Assembly (NCBI GenBank): GCA_036172665.1
Contig: CM069877.1
Location: 28,049,001 to 28,113,000 of the forward strand
Reading direction: 5' to 3'
Length of the DNA: 64,000 nt
Source of the DNA: Prosopocoilus inquinatus
Lineage: Eukaryota > Arthropoda > Insecta > Coleoptera > Lucanidae
Positions within the stretch are counted from its first letter, which is position 1; the number at the start of each line of letters is the position of its first letter. A model generated the notes under the pieces. It did not search any database and had not been told where the DNA came from. It saw only the letters and a program-made list of their open reading frames with translations. Positions 7,974 through 31,562 of the stretch are shown in pieces. Made by a program: the position numbers and the translations under genes.

Positions 7974-8275
7974 GTTATGCTTTGACAGCAAGCATGGCCG
8001 CCTTGCATGGGGGACTCATTAGGAGCCAATCCCGCTTCAATTTGTCTATCCTACTGCAATGTTAGGTCAACAAGCGATAGTAAGATGTCGCTATTTTATA
8101 TGTTCATCGTTCTTACATCGCATTTGCGAATAAATTGTGCAAGTCGTTTTTGGTCTGCAGTGGGAATGTCGAGCTACGTTTCTGCTGAAGAAGCCCCAAG
8201 CAGGGCTGAAACAGCTGTCCAGAGGCTGCTCGAGGTTCTCACTGCAATCAAAAACGATTTGCACAAAATTTTTTT
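7974..8275 (+). mobile_element. Retrozyme-like repeat, copy A
   Basis: About 300 bp closely matching copies near 38.3 kb and 56.3 kb, from TGCTTTGACAGCAAGCATGG to the T-rich end after GCACAAAA. It contains one full hammerhead ribozyme near its 3' end (8156-8246) and no coding frame shared among copies. Metazoan retrozymes are small non-autonomous retroelements with type I hammerheads, thought to be mobilised by Penelope-like elements. The 5' end appears truncated in the same way as one of the other units. Confidence 0.75.
8156..8246 (+). ncRNA. Type I hammerhead ribozyme A
   Basis: Core CTGAAGA (8185-8191); stem II AGCCC/GGGCT (8192-8196 with 8203-8207) closing a 6-nt loop; GAAA (8208-8211); self-complementary stem III ACAG/CTGT without a loop; cleavage expected after C8219 (GTC). 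Stem I pairs next to the core and again distally: TGCAGTGGGAA (8156-8166) with TTCTCACTGCA (8236-8246), 11 bp with one G-U pair. All core nucleotides fit the hammerhead consensus. A loopless stem III suggests cleavage as a dimer. Confidence 0.85.
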
Positions 8276-8502
8276 ATTAAATTTTTCATTTGGCAATATT
8301 CTAGTATTCTTTTCCCATTATTATCTCTTGTTGTTTCTCCGTATTATCCCAGTCCTGTTGAATATGTACTGTTAAAATCTCCCATTACAAATATGTTCCC
8401 CTTCCCAAAAAATATCTTTGATCTCCGTTTTTCCGTCATCACTAGGCTCACAATCACATAACATTATTGTGATATTACTCTGTTCTGTAATTCTCAATTT
8501 TA

Positions 8503-24960: not shown

Positions 24961-25035
24961 CGAAATTTTAGAAAGTGAGATGCGCCGTTTTAAATTAAGT
25001 ACCGCTAGATTTAGCAAATAACACACTGTGCAGCG

Positions 25036-25249
25036 TAGAGAATTCGAGACGGCCGCAAAGGATATAAAATCGCCCGGAGTTGACTCACCAGGCAGTCGAA
25101 TTCGAACAGCGATCGTCGAAGTTAGATTTTAGTGTGAAAATAAATTGTTACAAATAAATTAGTTTTTAAGCTTTATTAAATTACGGTTAAGTTTTTATCG
25201 AGTGTTTTATTCGTTTAAATAAATAAATTTAAACCCTAGAAACGTAACA
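25036..25249 (+). repeat. Gypsy 5' LTR, second part
   Basis: Matches the 3' LTR from TAGAGAATTCGAGACGG to CGTAACA. It holds GGATATAAAA near 25059-25068, a TATA-like promoter signal about 70 bp before the region where the element transcript would begin. Confidence 0.88.
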
Positions 25250-25250
25250 G

Positions 25251-25268
25251 TGGTGTCGGTGTGCGGGT
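25251..25268 (+). promoter_or_regulatory. Candidate primer-binding site
   Basis: TGGTGTCGGTGTGCGGG starts one base after the 5' LTR; TGG complements the CCA end of a tRNA. I do not assign the tRNA species. Confidence 0.6.
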
Positions 25269-25346
25269 TTGTGCAAATAAATAAACAATTTAAAGTAAAT
25301 TAAATTAAATCAGATTATTAAATAAGTACAGTATCGGAAAAAAACA

Positions 25347-26207
25347 ATGGCTACGAGAAAAGTGTTGTTGAAAGACTTAAAAGTGGCCGAATTAAAAACC
25401 GAATTGGAAGAACGAGAGTTAGAAACCGGTGGTTTGAAAGGCGCACTTCAACAGCGTCTCCGATGCGATTTGTTGACAGCTGGTGAAGATCCAGAGACGT
25501 TCCTTTTCGAAATTTCGTGTGGTCCCGCCGATTTTAATAAATTCTTGAAGGACGAATTTCGAGAACAATCCAGAAATTTGGACGAGAAGTTTCAAGAACA
25601 GTCTGGAAATTTCAAGGACGAACTTCGAGAACAATCCAGAAATTTGGACGAGAAGTTTCTAGAACAATCTGGAAAATTCAAGGACGAACTTCGAGAACAA
25701 TCCAGAAATTTGGACGAGAAATTTCAAGAACAGTCTGGAAATTTACAGAAGCTTCGAGAACAATCCAGAAATTTAGAGGAGAAGCTTCCAGAACAATCTG
25801 GAAATTTCGACAAATTACAAAATAAATTGTTGGAACAATCTAGAGACTTAGACGAGAAATTTCTAGAGCAATCCAGAAATTTCGACGAGAAACTTCTAGA
25901 ACAGTCCGGAAATTTGAAGGGTGAATTTCTAGAACAGACGAAAGGACTCGAAGATAAACTAGTGGTAAAAATATCGGAAGAAACAAGAAACCTGCAAGAA
26001 AATGTGGAAGAAATAATATTCCAGCAGGATAACAAAATCAAAAATCTGGAACAAATCATGGTGGTGTTACCACCGCCGAGGATGTTCGCCGCATTGTGGA
26101 ACAGGTCTTCAAGCAGAAGAAGCCGCTGGTGTGGCCAGGAAGAAGGACATGTTCGCAGGCGATGTCCAAAGCCCAGACAGGATCCAAGGAAGCCACAGTT
26201 AAACTAA
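25347..26207 (+). CDS. Gypsy Gag-like protein with SAP domain and coiled-coil repeats
   Basis: 286 codons from ATG 25347. Residues ~8-45 look like a SAP motif (KDLKVAELKTELEERELE...GLKGALQQRL), a small DNA/RNA-binding helix pair. Residues ~65-200 are tandem copies of REQSRNLDEKFQEQSGNF-type units, strongly alpha-helical. The tail has a degraded zinc knuckle (WCGQEEGH...RRRC) with its first Cys displaced. In retroelements Gag packages the RNA; here the usual long capsid region seems to be missing or replaced by the repeats, so the protein may be internally deleted. It overlaps pol (from 26096) in the -1 frame, the usual Gypsy frameshift layout. Confidence 0.75.
   Translation: MATRKVLLKDLKVAELKTELEERELETGGLKGALQQRLRCDLLTAGEDPETFLFEISCGPADFNKFLKDEFREQSRNLDEKFQEQSGNFKDELREQSRNLDEKFLEQSGKFKDELREQSRNLDEKFQEQSGNLQKLREQSRNLEEKLPEQSGNFDKLQNKLLEQSRDLDEKFLEQSRNFDEKLLEQSGNLKGEFLEQTKGLEDKLVVKISEETRNLQENVEEIIFQQDNKIKNLEQIMVVLPPPRMFAALWNRSSSRRSRWCGQEEGHVRRRCPKPRQDPRKPQLN
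25550..25945 (+). repeat. In-frame 33/66-bp coding repeats in gag
   Basis: GAACAATCCAGAAATTT-type units recur about every 33 bp, with alternate units more alike (66-bp period), across residues ~65-200 of Gag. Lengths are multiples of three. Confidence 0.85.
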
Positions 26208-29200
26208 GCCGGGTCGGTGCAGAGGGGCAAACGTCGACCCGTATTCAAAGGCCCCCAAAGACGAAAGCCAAACAAGTAATATCCCTACGGCAGTTAACCA
26301 GCAGTGTCTTCGTGGATGTTACCATTGATGACATTCCTCACACCATGTTGTTGGATACGGGTGCGACGAAGACCATCCTAAGACCCGACGTCATCAAGTC
26401 ATCTGGACGCACCGAGCCGACCAAGTGGAGACTAAAAACTGCAACTGGAACATCAGCAACTGTCCACGGTGAAGTAGAGGTTATCATCACCATTGGATCA
26501 ACTCCAATAAAACACCGTGCACTGGTAGCGGATATAGAGGACGAGGCAATTTTGGGCATGGACGTCATGTGTGCCCACGGATTTCAATTGGACTTAAAGC
26601 GTGGCGTAATGGTGGTCAATAATGAGGAGTTGGTTCTACATCAACGAGGAGACGTGGCCGCTCGAGTAGTCCTCGCTGAAGACGTATTACCCAGCAGGAC
26701 TGAGGTTATCGTCGACGCAAAATTGAACGGTGTTTTTCAAGATGGGCAAGTCATTATGGTTGAACCTAATACTGATGATCAGAAGATTGGAAGAGGAGTC
26801 CTCGTTGGGAAAATGTTGTTGACGGCGAAGGAGGAAGTACCTGTCCGCCTGATGAACGTCAATTGTTTCTCCGTCAATATCAAGAAAGGAACCATCTTGG
26901 GAAGCTGCACCATGGTGTCCTCCATCTCCCGCCACCTTGAAGCAAACGTGCCAAAAGCGAAAGTCCCAAGGAAATTATGGGAAATGGTTATGTCAACAGC
27001 CCAGGAATTGACTCCAGACCAGAAGACAAAAGCAAAGAATCTGATCGGCCGCTATCAAGATGTATTTGAGGTAGAAAATGGATCCAAGGGAAGAACTGAT
27101 GTCGTGAAACACAAAATAGAGACTGGAGAAGAAAGACCTATCCGTCAAGCTCCAAGGCGATTACCGTTGGCGAAGCGTGAGGAAGCGGAACGCATTATTC
27201 GCGAGATGGAAAAGGATAATGTGATAGAACCATCAAGCAGCCCGTGGGCGTCACCAGTAGTGCTTGTGAAGAAGAAGGATGGGTCCACCAGGTTCTGTGT
27301 AGACTACCGGTTACTCAACAATGTCACCAAGAAGGACAGCTATCCCCTGCCACGGATTGATGATACCCTGGACACCCTGGCCGGCTCAAAGATCTTCTCT
27401 ACTTTGGACTTAAAGAGTGGATATTGGCAAGTGGAGCTGGCGCCTGAAGATCGAGAAAAGACGGCGTTTTCCATTGGTATGGGTCTGTGGCAGTTCACAG
27501 TGATGCCATTCGGGTTATGTAATGCCCCAGCGACATTCGAGAGGTTAATGGAGACGGTTCTGAAAGGTCTGTCCTGGACAACGTGCATGGTGTACCTTGA
27601 CGACATAATCGTCGTGGGAAAGACGTTCGACGACCACCTAAGGAACCTGGAAGGAGTGTTCCAGCGGCTTCGCGGAGCTGGACTAAAGCTTAGCCTCAAG
27701 AAGTGTCTCCTGTTCCAGAAGGAAGTGAATTACCTGGGGCACATTGTTAATGGAAATGGAATCGCCGTGAACCCTGTGAAGATTCAGGTGGTGAAAGACT
27801 GGCCAACTCCCAGAAATAAGGAGTTTCCTTGGCCTGTGCACTTACTATCGGCGCTACGTTCCTGGATTTGCAGACATTGCTAAGCCATTGACAAAACTCA
27901 CTGAAGAAGGTCGTCCATTTGAATGGGACCAACAGTGTCAAATTGGCTTTGAACAACTAAAGCAGTACTTGATTAGTGCTCCTATTCTGAGTTATCCTCT
28001 CCCGGAAGGAAAATTCGTCGTGGACACAGATGCTAGCAACGTTGGGATTGGTGGCGTACTCTCCCAGATACAAGAGGGGCAAGAGAAGGTGATCGGCTAC
28101 TTCAGTAAAGTCCTATCAAAGCCGGAACGAAACTATTGCGTCACAAGAAGGGAATTGCTAGCCGTCGTAAAAATGATAGAACATTTCTACAAGTACTTGT
28201 ATGGTAGACGCTTCCTCCTGAGGACCGACCATGCCGCTCTAAAATGGCTTCTCCGTTTCAAGAACCCAGAAGGGCAAGTTGCACGATGGATCGAAGGACT
28301 TCAGGAGTACGATTTTGAAATTCAGCATCGGGCAGGAACGAGCCATCGAAATGCCGATGCTTTGTCGAGAAGACCCTGTGCCGAAGACTGTAAGCACTGT
28401 AGTCGTTTGGACGAGAAAGTAGCCACGACTGCGAGGACAGCCATTGTTGACGACAAATGGCAAGGCGAAGAACAGCGAACAGACCAGGAGAACGACCCGG
28501 ATTTGAAATTAGTGCTAGAGTGGAAAAGCAGGGACGCGAGGCCTACCTGGGAAGAGGTAGCACCATGTGCACCATCCGTAAAATCATACTGGGCGCAGTG
28601 GCACTCCATAGTGTTGGATCGTGGTCTTCTGAGACGAAGCATAGAGAATCAGGAAGGCATGGAACAGAAGACACAGTTACTGATCCCCAAGAATAGGATG
28701 CCAGAAGTTCTGAGGGAACTTCACGATGGAACTTCGGGAGGGCATCTGGGAGTTAAGAAGACTATGGAGAAGGTGCGCGAAAGATTTTACTGGGTGAACT
28801 GCAAGGAAGACGTGAAGGATTGGTGCAGAATGTGCAGTCTGCGCAGCCAGTAACGGTCCCCACAGGCGGGGTAAGGCCCCCATGAGACAGTACAACGTTG
28901 GAAGTCCTTTTGAGAGAGTTGCCATCGATGTAGCCGGTCCGTTTCCAGAAACGAATGGTGGAAACAAGTACATCGTCGTGGTAATGGACTACTTTAGCAA
29001 GTGGGTTGAAGCTTACGCCCTACCTAACCAAGAGGCAGTCACTATTGCGGGAGTCCTTGTCAGGGAATGGATCAGTCGGTATGGTGCACCTATGGAACTG
29101 CATTCAGACCAAGGAAGGAACTTTGAATCGGCCTTGTTCAAAAACGTGTGTACTCTGCTCGGCGTACGAAAAACTAGAACAACTGCACTCCACCCACAGT

Positions 29201-29758
29201 CGGACGGAATGGTGGAAAGGTTCAATAGAACCATCAACCGACATTTGTCCAAGGTCGTTTCCGATCATCAGAGGGACTGGGATACGTACATCCCCCTGTT
29301 TCTAATGGCATACCGCTCATCTGTTCATGAGACAACAGGGGAGACTCCCGCGAAAGTGGTATTCGGGCGAGAGCCGAGACTGCCCTGCGACCTGAAGTTT
29401 GGTGTGAAGCCTGGCGAAGTCTCTGCCGACGAAGATTACGTGTGCAAATTACACAGGAAAATGGATGATATCCACAACCAAGTGCGTCACAATATACAGA
29501 CGGCCAGCGATCGGATGAAGGAGCACTATGACATCAACGCTCAACACGGGGGATACCAACCTGGAGCACTGGTCTGGCTTTATAACCCCCCAAAGACGTC
29601 GAGGCCTCTCCCCAAAACTGCAGACCTCTTGGGAAGGTCCTTACAAAGTGATGAAACGGATCAACGACGTCGTTTACCGAATCAAGAAGGTCCCCCCATG
29701 GCAAACCCAAAGTAATCCACTTCAACCGGATAGCCCCTTACCATGGAGAAGCAGATGA
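26096..29758 (+). pseudogene. Gypsy pol: protease, reverse transcriptase, RNase H, integrase
   Basis: Order and motifs: aspartic protease (LLDTGATKTIL, ~26345); reverse transcriptase with FCVDYRLLN, MPFGLCNAP and catalytic YLDD (~27594-27605); RNase H (VVDTDASNVGIGG ~28018, and DHAALKW); integrase zinc region (GGHLGVKK ... CRMC); integrase core with the Asp of AIDVAGP, the Asp of HSDQGRNFE and the Glu of GMVERFNR; then a GPY/F module (WEGPYKV, ~29625). Frames change near 27830, 28838, 29615 and 29695, at least four indels, some in homopolymers. All catalytic residues I can see remain, so decay is recent. The frame runs on without a natural stop into the next feature. Confidence 0.92.
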
Positions 29759-30572
29759 AGGGACAGTACAAAGGGCGCAAGTTTCCGAAGTGAACTTCGA
29801 AACCTTCATGTCTCATCACGCCGAAGGAAGCAAGGCACGGTTTGGAGTGACCACGGAGAAGCAACAAGATCTCTTTAAAGTGCCACTGGAGTACAGTCTG
29901 GCCCACTGCGTAGCAGAAGACCTGAAAATGTCCAAAGGAATCGCTCAGGTGTTTAGGAAGAAATTTGGCCAAATCGAGGAGCTACGAAGATAGCATCCCG
30001 TGGTAGGCAAGAGCTTGCAGATCATTGATTCGACGGCAGATCGGAGGCGCCACGTGCATTATTTAGTCACTAAGAAGACATCAAGCGGTAAACCTGACTA
30101 TCAAAGTATGTGGAGAGCCCTATATAGCCTGAGGAGACAGCTAATAGAGAACCATCAGATGAAGTTAGCCATCCCCAAATTGGGCTGCGGATTGGACGGA
30201 CTAGAGTGGAGAGTAATTCGAAGCATGCTGGAAGTCATCTTCCACAGAACGGGAATTGAAGTCCTAGTCTGCAGCCACCACCCACAGGCAACAGTCAGCA
30301 ACAGCAAAACCGTAGACTGCTACTTCTTCCAGACGGAGAGTTGCAAGAATGGGCCAGCATGTACATTCCGACACCCTCCTTCAAGACTATCACCAGTAAC
30401 ATTTCGAGACGAAACGTTTTTAAGAAGGGGGCAGTGTGGCGCGCCACCCGGCTTAGCTCAAGGCGTCAAGAAGTCGGTTCGTTATGCGTCATTGGCTGCC
30501 ACGCCACCGGGGTCTACATCGAACAGACTAGACTTTTCCGGCGATGGAACAAACTCGAATCTTCCAGCGTAG
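29759..30572 (+). pseudogene. Macrodomain (TARG1/OARD1-like) plus CCCH zinc finger at the Gypsy pol 3' end
   Basis: The frame follows on from the integrase C terminus through a linker and enters a macrodomain (~29870-30280). Macrodomains of the TARG1/OARD1 class remove ADP-ribose from proteins. Shared motifs are SLAHCVAEDLKM, GIAQVFRKKFG, YLVTKK and IPKLGCGLDGLEW. The Lys of TKK and the Asp of GCGLD correspond to the two catalytic residues of human TARG1 (Lys84, Asp125). A CCCH finger follows: Cys codons at 30318, 30342 and 30360 and a His codon at 30372, spacing C-x7-C-x5-C-x3-H. One TAG at 29991-29993 interrupts it. The frame ends at TAG 30570-30572, inside the 3' LTR. It takes the place of env. 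Domain identity is strong by eye; function in the element is inferred. Confidence 0.85.
30423..30434 (+). promoter_or_regulatory. Polypurine tract
   Basis: AGAAGGGGGCAG directly before the 3' LTR, the expected plus-strand primer site. It lies inside the coding frame of the macrodomain/CCCH product. Confidence 0.7.
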
Positions 30573-30783
30573 AGAATTCGAGACGGCCGCAAAGGATATA
30601 AAATCGGCCCAAGTTGACTCACCAGGCAGTCGAATTCGAACAGCGATCGTCGAAGTTAGATTTTAGTGTGAAAATAAATTGTTGCAAATAAATTAGTTTT
30701 TAAGCTTTATTAAATTACGGTTAAGTTTTTATCGAGTGTTTTATTCGTTTAAATAAATAAATTTAAACCCTAGAAACGTAACA
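30435..30783 (+). repeat. Gypsy 3' LTR
   Basis: 349 bp, TG...CA ends, intact. It begins with a GGCGCGCC palindrome and includes the GGATATAAAA promoter signal and AATAAATAAA-type polyadenylation words. Followed by target duplicate GTAT. Confidence 0.92.
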
Positions 30784-31562
30784 GTATTAACTTTTGTTCT
30801 GCCAAAGATTTTAGTCAAATTTATTTTTTAATAATAGATCACACAATTTATTACAAACTACACATTAGCAGAATAATTTGTGCTTTGTTAGTTTCAATAT
30901 TTTAAGATTAAAAGTTCACATTAATAAGAGTAATAAATATTAACCCAGTAGGCCAAAGTCAAAATGTAACTAACGTCAGCGCTACCTAAATATTGCAATA
31001 TTTTCATTTAAAATTACTAAAAACAGGCATTTATTTAAATAACATAATTCGACAATTAACGGAAACCAAACAAATTTCGACTATTTCTTCAACGCAACGG
31101 AGTAAACAGACATTTTTGTTACAGTTGTGTTCTGATGTGGACAGCACAACGACAAATTAATTTTTAACGTTGACCTACTCGATTGATTTGTTCTTTAATA
31201 ATTTCAACTTTTAGTCGTAAAATAATTAAATCAATGACACACCTGTTATTCTGGTAGTGTGTATTTTGTAATAAATTGTATAATTAATTATTAAAAACTG
31301 AAATTTGTCCAAAGCCTTTGGCAGAACAAAAGTTTACAGGAGGCAAAATTTTTGTCATGTAAATCCCTATGGCCACAATTAAAAAAAAACACTGTATGTG
31401 CATTCATGAAATTCAAAAAATTGTTGTACAGGTTTTGTTACATATACGGTATCTGGCAATAATATTATTGTAAGTAAAAAGTTTTTAATGTTAAACCGGA
31501 CAGAATTATAATTGGAAAAGCACTCAACGTTTCACTATCGATTGATAGCTTCGTAAGGGATC

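Follow-up and report, generated by a model that had tools for sequence, protein, structure and literature searches.

What is a macrodomain related to an ADP-ribose hydrolase doing at the end of a retrotransposon polyprotein? This question is raised by positions 29759-30572 of a 64,000-nucleotide stretch of Prosopocoilus inquinatus DNA (the window, meaning the whole stretch that was analyzed), which holds a Ty3/Gypsy-type element. An earlier note on this DNA had described there a TARG1-like macrodomain and a CCCH zinc finger in continuation of the integrase. We interpret this sequence as a disrupted copy of the polyprotein's C-terminal end, and we consider it reasonably probable, judging from sequence comparisons, that the TARG1/OARD1 macrodomain and the CCCH finger serve the element as an ADP-ribose eraser.

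Identity and recurrence of the module

Both halves of the macrodomain matched human C6orf130/OARD1 when compared with the PDB by phmmer (29655-29990 with 2lgr, E 7.1e-9; 29994-30569 with 4j5r, E 3.2e-15). The TARG1 pattern TKx(30,35)Px[IL]GxGxD, published together with the catalytic roles of TARG1 K84 and D125 (PMC6397177), occurred a single time over the six frames of the window, at 30069-30197. A chance match was rejected on the basis of the two PDB matches and this single occurrence. The motifs SLAHCVAEDLKM, YLVTKK, GCGLDGLEW and the CCCH finger were present where the earlier note had placed them, and its assignment of a TARG1-type macrodomain with catalytic Lys and Asp agreed with the PDB matches and with the retention of both residues in copies and relatives. 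The profile check that it had proposed succeeded for the finger (PF00642, zf-CCCH, scoring 21.1 bits where the cut-off is 20.5) and failed for the macrodomain: no Pfam macro model matched either piece at E up to 1, which counts against the observation, though phmmer does find OARD1. The closest PDB fingers were those of CPSF30 (CPSF4) (E 2.1e-4). The predicted structure of one relative (P0002) showed a macro fold closest to TARG1 and of the ADP-ribose-binding type. By sequence and predicted fold, the domain is of the TARG1 type.

The genome of the window (650 Mb, 173 contigs) was searched by DNA with 29700-30572, and 40 of 2,206 candidates were scored. The search revealed 40 near-full places at 98-100% identity, including the window, plus one partial place at 93%. 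In protein searches of the genome with two relatives, all 150 scored places matched (the best 150 of 1,361 and of 1,382 candidates), and no stop was observed within the match at any of the 150 best-first places scored in one of them. Twenty of the other 39 near-full copies, those most similar to the window, were read at length. An open frame ran from the integrase end through the macrodomain and finger into the 3' long terminal repeat (LTR) in 19 of the 20, and 17 of these frames were open from at least 300 nt upstream; some copies had frames of about 1,500 or 1,980 amino acids spanning the module. All 21 copies, the window included, retained the finger ligands C, C, C and H. In 15 copies the start of the 5' LTR was complete, with LTR pair identities of 93.8-100%, and matching 4-bp target-site duplications stood beside the TGT...ACA ends in 13 of these 15 (not in L022 and L012). 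The element is young, multicopy and recently mobile. The module is thus the C-terminal part of the polyprotein frame and is mobilized together with the element. The earlier note had proposed a search for other Gypsy copies with the same 3' domains and intact frames, and the 19 open copies are of this kind. None of the three outcomes that it had set against itself was observed: a missing macrodomain match, copies without the region, or a unique region with its own insertion junctions.

Two other explanations were rejected. A host gene adjoining an element does not account for a module that recurs at many places between integrase and 3' LTR. A conserved in-frame TGA at many places, considered as a read-through signal, proved on translation of ten short stretches to be the ordinary stop of subfamilies with differing LTR tails; the subfamily-specific coding tails end in the LTR.

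Copies L010 and L021, and likewise L026 and L027, had the same 10-14 flanking bases, so each pair is probably one insertion and the 20 copies represent at most 18 independent insertions. L012 and L024 had a common downstream flank. The two pairs sit on contigs C6 and C15, and C15 may, judging from these shared flanks, be an alternative haplotype or a duplicate of part of C6. Directly downstream of copy L020 (oriented stretch 7977-8501), more module pieces of 91-96% identity were observed, indicating that copies cluster or nest.

Variation was examined in 29 copies: the window, the 20 copies read at length and ten short stretches picked by hand, after removal of two same-flank duplicates. Variants present in at least two copies were nonsynonymous in 6 cases and synonymous in 10 (2.53:1 expected, p 0.0046), and singleton variants in 42 and 29 cases, respectively (2.53:1 expected, p 0.016), in a test that ignores CpG effects and relatedness. 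As judged from these counts, the variation shows selection against amino-acid change.

Relatives and origin of the macrodomain

With only the module as query, 159 proteins were found. Of the 120 listed, the majority belonged to Aromia moschata and Molorchus minor (54-57% identity), and by our count 116 of the 120 also carried the integrase C-terminal model. These 120 and two proteins from another search form our set of 122 relatives. Lys was retained in all 122, Asp in 121, and each of the four finger ligands in 121 or 122. The C-x7-C-x5-C-x3-H spacing followed the macrodomain in 118 of 122, and an RRGQC-like peptide was present at some position in 103. In the GxGxD loop, the first Gly was replaced by Ala in 99 and by Ser in 18 of the 122. 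Eight diverged elements had Lys, Asp and His without exception, as well as the later Gly and the Asp of this loop.

The 120 proteins listed out of 228 matches in another search included shorter ones from Brassicogethes, Callosobruchus, Acanthoscelides, Leptinotarsa, two fireflies (Pyrocoelia and Aquatica) and a leafhopper (Macrosteles). Lineages were looked up for four species. The integrase C-terminal model was also found on the Leptinotarsa protein P0135, and the Macrosteles linker resembles that of the element. P0131, P0132 and P0135, from Leptinotarsa and Macrosteles, are public proteins named ADP-ribose glycohydrolase OARD1-like. From their sequences, the Leptinotarsa proteins appear to be pieces of this element type and those of Macrosteles probably are, which is a warning for annotation.

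The window family was compared with five other elements for integrase and module and with three for reverse transcriptase and protease. Identity was 71-88% in reverse transcriptase, RNase H and integrase, 45-62% in the protease and 48-75% in the module. The module thus evolves at roughly the pace of the protease and was probably present before these elements diverged.

A quick tree of 83 rows was reduced to 43 by removing four fragmentary rows and 36 others; viral-contig rows L039, L045 and L046 were left out. In the 43-row tree, 15 element rows and two Macrosteles rows formed one group (99/97) beside two aphid proteins (95/90), nested among animal OARD1s and unnamed metagenome rows. The element domains therefore group with animal OARD1 proteins, which agrees with the capture of a host gene inferred in the earlier note. 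A clade of the 15 element rows without Macrosteles was not the best arrangement, yet it was not rejected (p-AU, the p value of the approximately unbiased test, 0.263). In the 83-row tree, element row P0119 had no resolved position and lay outside the other element rows. The aphid OARD1-like proteins P0190 and P0231, the closest to the element domains in the 43-row tree, may be host genes or parts of another element.

A viral or bacterial origin was rejected, since the 43-row tree separated three bacterial rows and one viral-contig row from the animal rows (100/96). Against this, the long-branched viral-contig rows L039, L045 and L046 took no resolved position within the element and insect group of the 83-row tree. 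TARG1-like macrodomains were observed on eight IMG/VR viral contigs (L039-L046) and on contigs of Ruminococcus and other bacterial metagenome-assembled genomes (L047-L054); no relative emerged when viral contigs were first scanned with the window piece. No beetle host OARD1 gene was identified among the 120 listed of 228 matched proteins. We infer that a single capture of an insect OARD1 gene is the likeliest origin.

The element in the window

The window element is 5.75 kb long (25031-30783, forward strand), and domain models (Pfam profiles) were scored piece by piece along it (Table 1). The Ty3/Gypsy order of protease, reverse transcriptase, RNase H and integrase with a GPY/F end (segment WEGPYKV) was observed in the window. 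Paired TGT...ACA LTRs and a polypurine tract were found as expected for this group, as were short target-site duplications, which were judged on other copies because the window 5' LTR is cut. The coding frame stops inside the 3' LTR, and 30435-30572 is thus LTR and coding sequence at once.

Table 1. Parts of the Ty3/Gypsy-type element in the window
Feature	Position	Strand	Evidence
5' LTR remnant, last ~219 bp	25031-25249	+	98.2% identity to 3' LTR (217/221, including two bases outside the LTR)
gag N-terminal frame	25326-26207	+	SAP domain 25368-25466, PF02037, 28.9 bits against cut-off 23.9; frame shorter than in other copies
Coiled coil of 33-nt repeat units, in gag frame	about 25530-25969	+	Repeat analysis
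Aspartic protease and reverse transcriptase	26033-27883	+	PF13650 E 1.7e-10; PF00078 E 2e-37
RNase H and integrase zinc-binding domain	27795-28853	+	PF17917 E 1.4e-33; PF17921 E 2.1e-17
Integrase core	28816-29715	+	PF00665 E 5.9e-13
Integrase C-terminal (GPY/F) segment, in a different frame in the window copy	29519-29758	+	81-83% identity with five other elements (36 aa compared)
Linker and N-terminal half of TARG1-type macrodomain (match 29853-29984)	29655-29990	+	PDB 2lgr E 7.1e-9
In-frame TAG inside macrodomain of window copy	29991-29993	+	Read from frames
C-terminal macrodomain half (match 30045-30269), CCCH finger and tail into 3' LTR	29994-30572	+	PDB 4j5r E 3.2e-15
Lys codon, equivalent of TARG1 K84	30072-30074	+	Lys in 21/21 copies including window, 122/122 relatives
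Asp codon, equivalent of TARG1 D125	30195-30197	+	Asp in 20/21 copies including window, 121/122 relatives
C-x7-C-x5-C-x3-H zinc finger	30318-30374	+	PF00642 above cut-off
Polypurine tract, within reading frame (peptide LRRGQC)	30422-30434	+	Read from sequence
3' LTR (TGT...ACA)	30435-30783	+	LTR pairs of other copies

In the window copy, gag and pol are spread over several frames, and other copies have roughly 0.5-0.9 kb more between gag start and reverse transcriptase. The single reading frame with one 1-nt shift near 29695, as described in the earlier note, did not hold: the integrase end shifts frame twice, and a TAG interrupts the macrodomain. Together with the shortening and the cut 5' LTR, these changes indicate that the window copy is unable to make the protein.

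Gag starts with a SAP domain, which is of a DNA-binding type and was annotated in many Aromia relatives too, followed by the coiled coil, whose repeat match pattern varies between copies. Directly downstream of the 3' LTR, inverted repeats at 30789-31334 (outer arms 41 nt, 83%; inner arms 111 nt, 77%) resemble a small DNA transposon or a miniature inverted-repeat transposable element abutting the retrotransposon.

Proposed role and known systems

Macrodomains of several RNA viruses counter host PARPs. If the beetle module works as TARG1 does, its Lys would attack the ribose C1'' and its Asp would resolve the lysyl-ADP-ribose intermediate. The ADP-ribose removed would be that placed by host PARPs on the integrase, Gag, cDNA or RNA of the element, and the CCCH finger, which from its family presumably binds RNA, would keep the eraser on element RNA. 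Because the domain adjoins the integrase, the site of action may be the particle or the pre-integration complex, a setting in which PARPs would act on cDNA ends and single-stranded DNA. That both catalytic residues are conserved favors an enzyme over a mere binder, and the position beside integrase and finger suggests the element's own proteins or nucleic acids as substrates. TARG1 itself removes ADP-ribose from Glu/Asp and from DNA thymidine, and its Lys is essential for rescue from DarT toxicity (PMC8501950). A wider proposal, that a beetle-wide Gypsy lineage uses a captured insect OARD1 eraser, fixed in its polyprotein, to keep cDNA, RNA and integrase ADP-ribose-free in the pre-integration complex, as a counter-defence that reverses ADP-ribosylation of nucleic acids, is tentative, and we would put it at less than an even chance. 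If it is true, insects use ADP-ribosylation against retrotransposons. If an ADP-ribosyl hydrolase is indeed kept across beetle families, ADP-ribosylation probably exerts pressure on insect retrotransposition, and the elements supply a natural series of TARG1 variants.

Several points weigh against the eraser. The copies read were chosen as the most similar to the window module, which favors intact ones. A stop lay inside the module of L025, and Val replaced the catalytic Asp in L019, whose frame is open. A single species, Aromia moschata, supplied most of the 122 relatives, as copies that are not independent. No more than 5 of the 122 fit the strict TARG1 pattern, since Ala or Ser mostly takes the place of the first loop Gly; with either allowed, 120 of 122 fit. 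Binding or catalysis may differ in these lineages. In the window family, alignments put Ala at the position of TARG1 S35. In the structure model, block means of the predicted local distance difference test (pLDDT) were below 60 in the finger and the integrase part, and the 43-row tree did not resolve the branching order of element domains and animal OARD1s.

The main rival to the eraser is a reader that would recognize ADP-ribosylated chromatin or DNA breaks and direct integration to them in the manner of a chromodomain. The place directly after the GPY/F end of the integrase, which is the chromodomain position in chromoviruses, the predicted ADP-ribose-binding fold and the open frame of L019 without its catalytic Asp are all consistent with it. 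Reading does not need both catalytic residues, yet they are retained in 121-122 of 122 relatives, and the finger points to RNA; we therefore regard a reader as rather unlikely. The module could also be structural or regulatory, with the finger acting in RNA packaging or polyprotein processing and the macrodomain as a spacer or RNA-binding fold. The finger spacing fixed in 118 of 122 relatives and the resemblance to CPSF30 agree with this idea, which we consider improbable because a spacer would not hold Lys, Asp, His and the later loop Gly and Asp invariant in eight diverged elements. That a host OARD1 exon was acquired by chance and is decaying without a role would fit the broken window copy itself. 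The 19 open copies of 20, the lack of stops at the 150 best places scored, the relatives in several insect families and the selection against amino-acid change contradict such a passenger, and we give it hardly any credence.

The earlier note knew of no standard Gypsy accessory module of this kind. Likewise, no report of a TARG1 or macrodomain-CCCH module in Gypsy pol was found among the listed matches of searches for such a fusion in open-licence literature, a body that leaves out most subscription journals. Chromoviruses, Gypsy elements with a chromodomain fused after the integrase C-terminus, resemble the beetle element in having an extra domain at this place and differ in that theirs is a histone-mark reader of another fold. 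DarG, also a macrodomain, is a bacterial antitoxin, and a tree without a row named DarG separated the three bacterial rows and one viral-contig row from the animal rows (100/96). Compared with TARG1/OARD1/C6orf130, the domain of the element is joined to integrase and a CCCH finger as a polyprotein C-terminus, 117 of 122 relatives have Ala or Ser for the first loop Gly, and its activity is a prediction.

Captured or additional genes are known in other retroelements. Bdelloid LTR elements capture extra open reading frames (ORFs) (PMC5408684), and some fish epsilon-like endogenous retroviruses carry extra macro-domain ORFs (PMC4977317). The fish elements are thus a precedent for a macro domain in an animal retroelement; they differ in being Retroviridae with an additional ORF, and the passage describing them, which cites Basta et al. 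2009, gives no macro-domain type and mentions neither an integrase fusion nor a CCCH finger. Orchid Ty3/Gypsy elements carry an AlkB demethylase for N6-methyladenosine in RNA, active in vitro, with conserved cofactor-binding residues (PMC9289625). Like the beetle element, they gained a host-type eraser of a mark, whereas theirs is another enzyme, encoded by an additional ORF, in plants.
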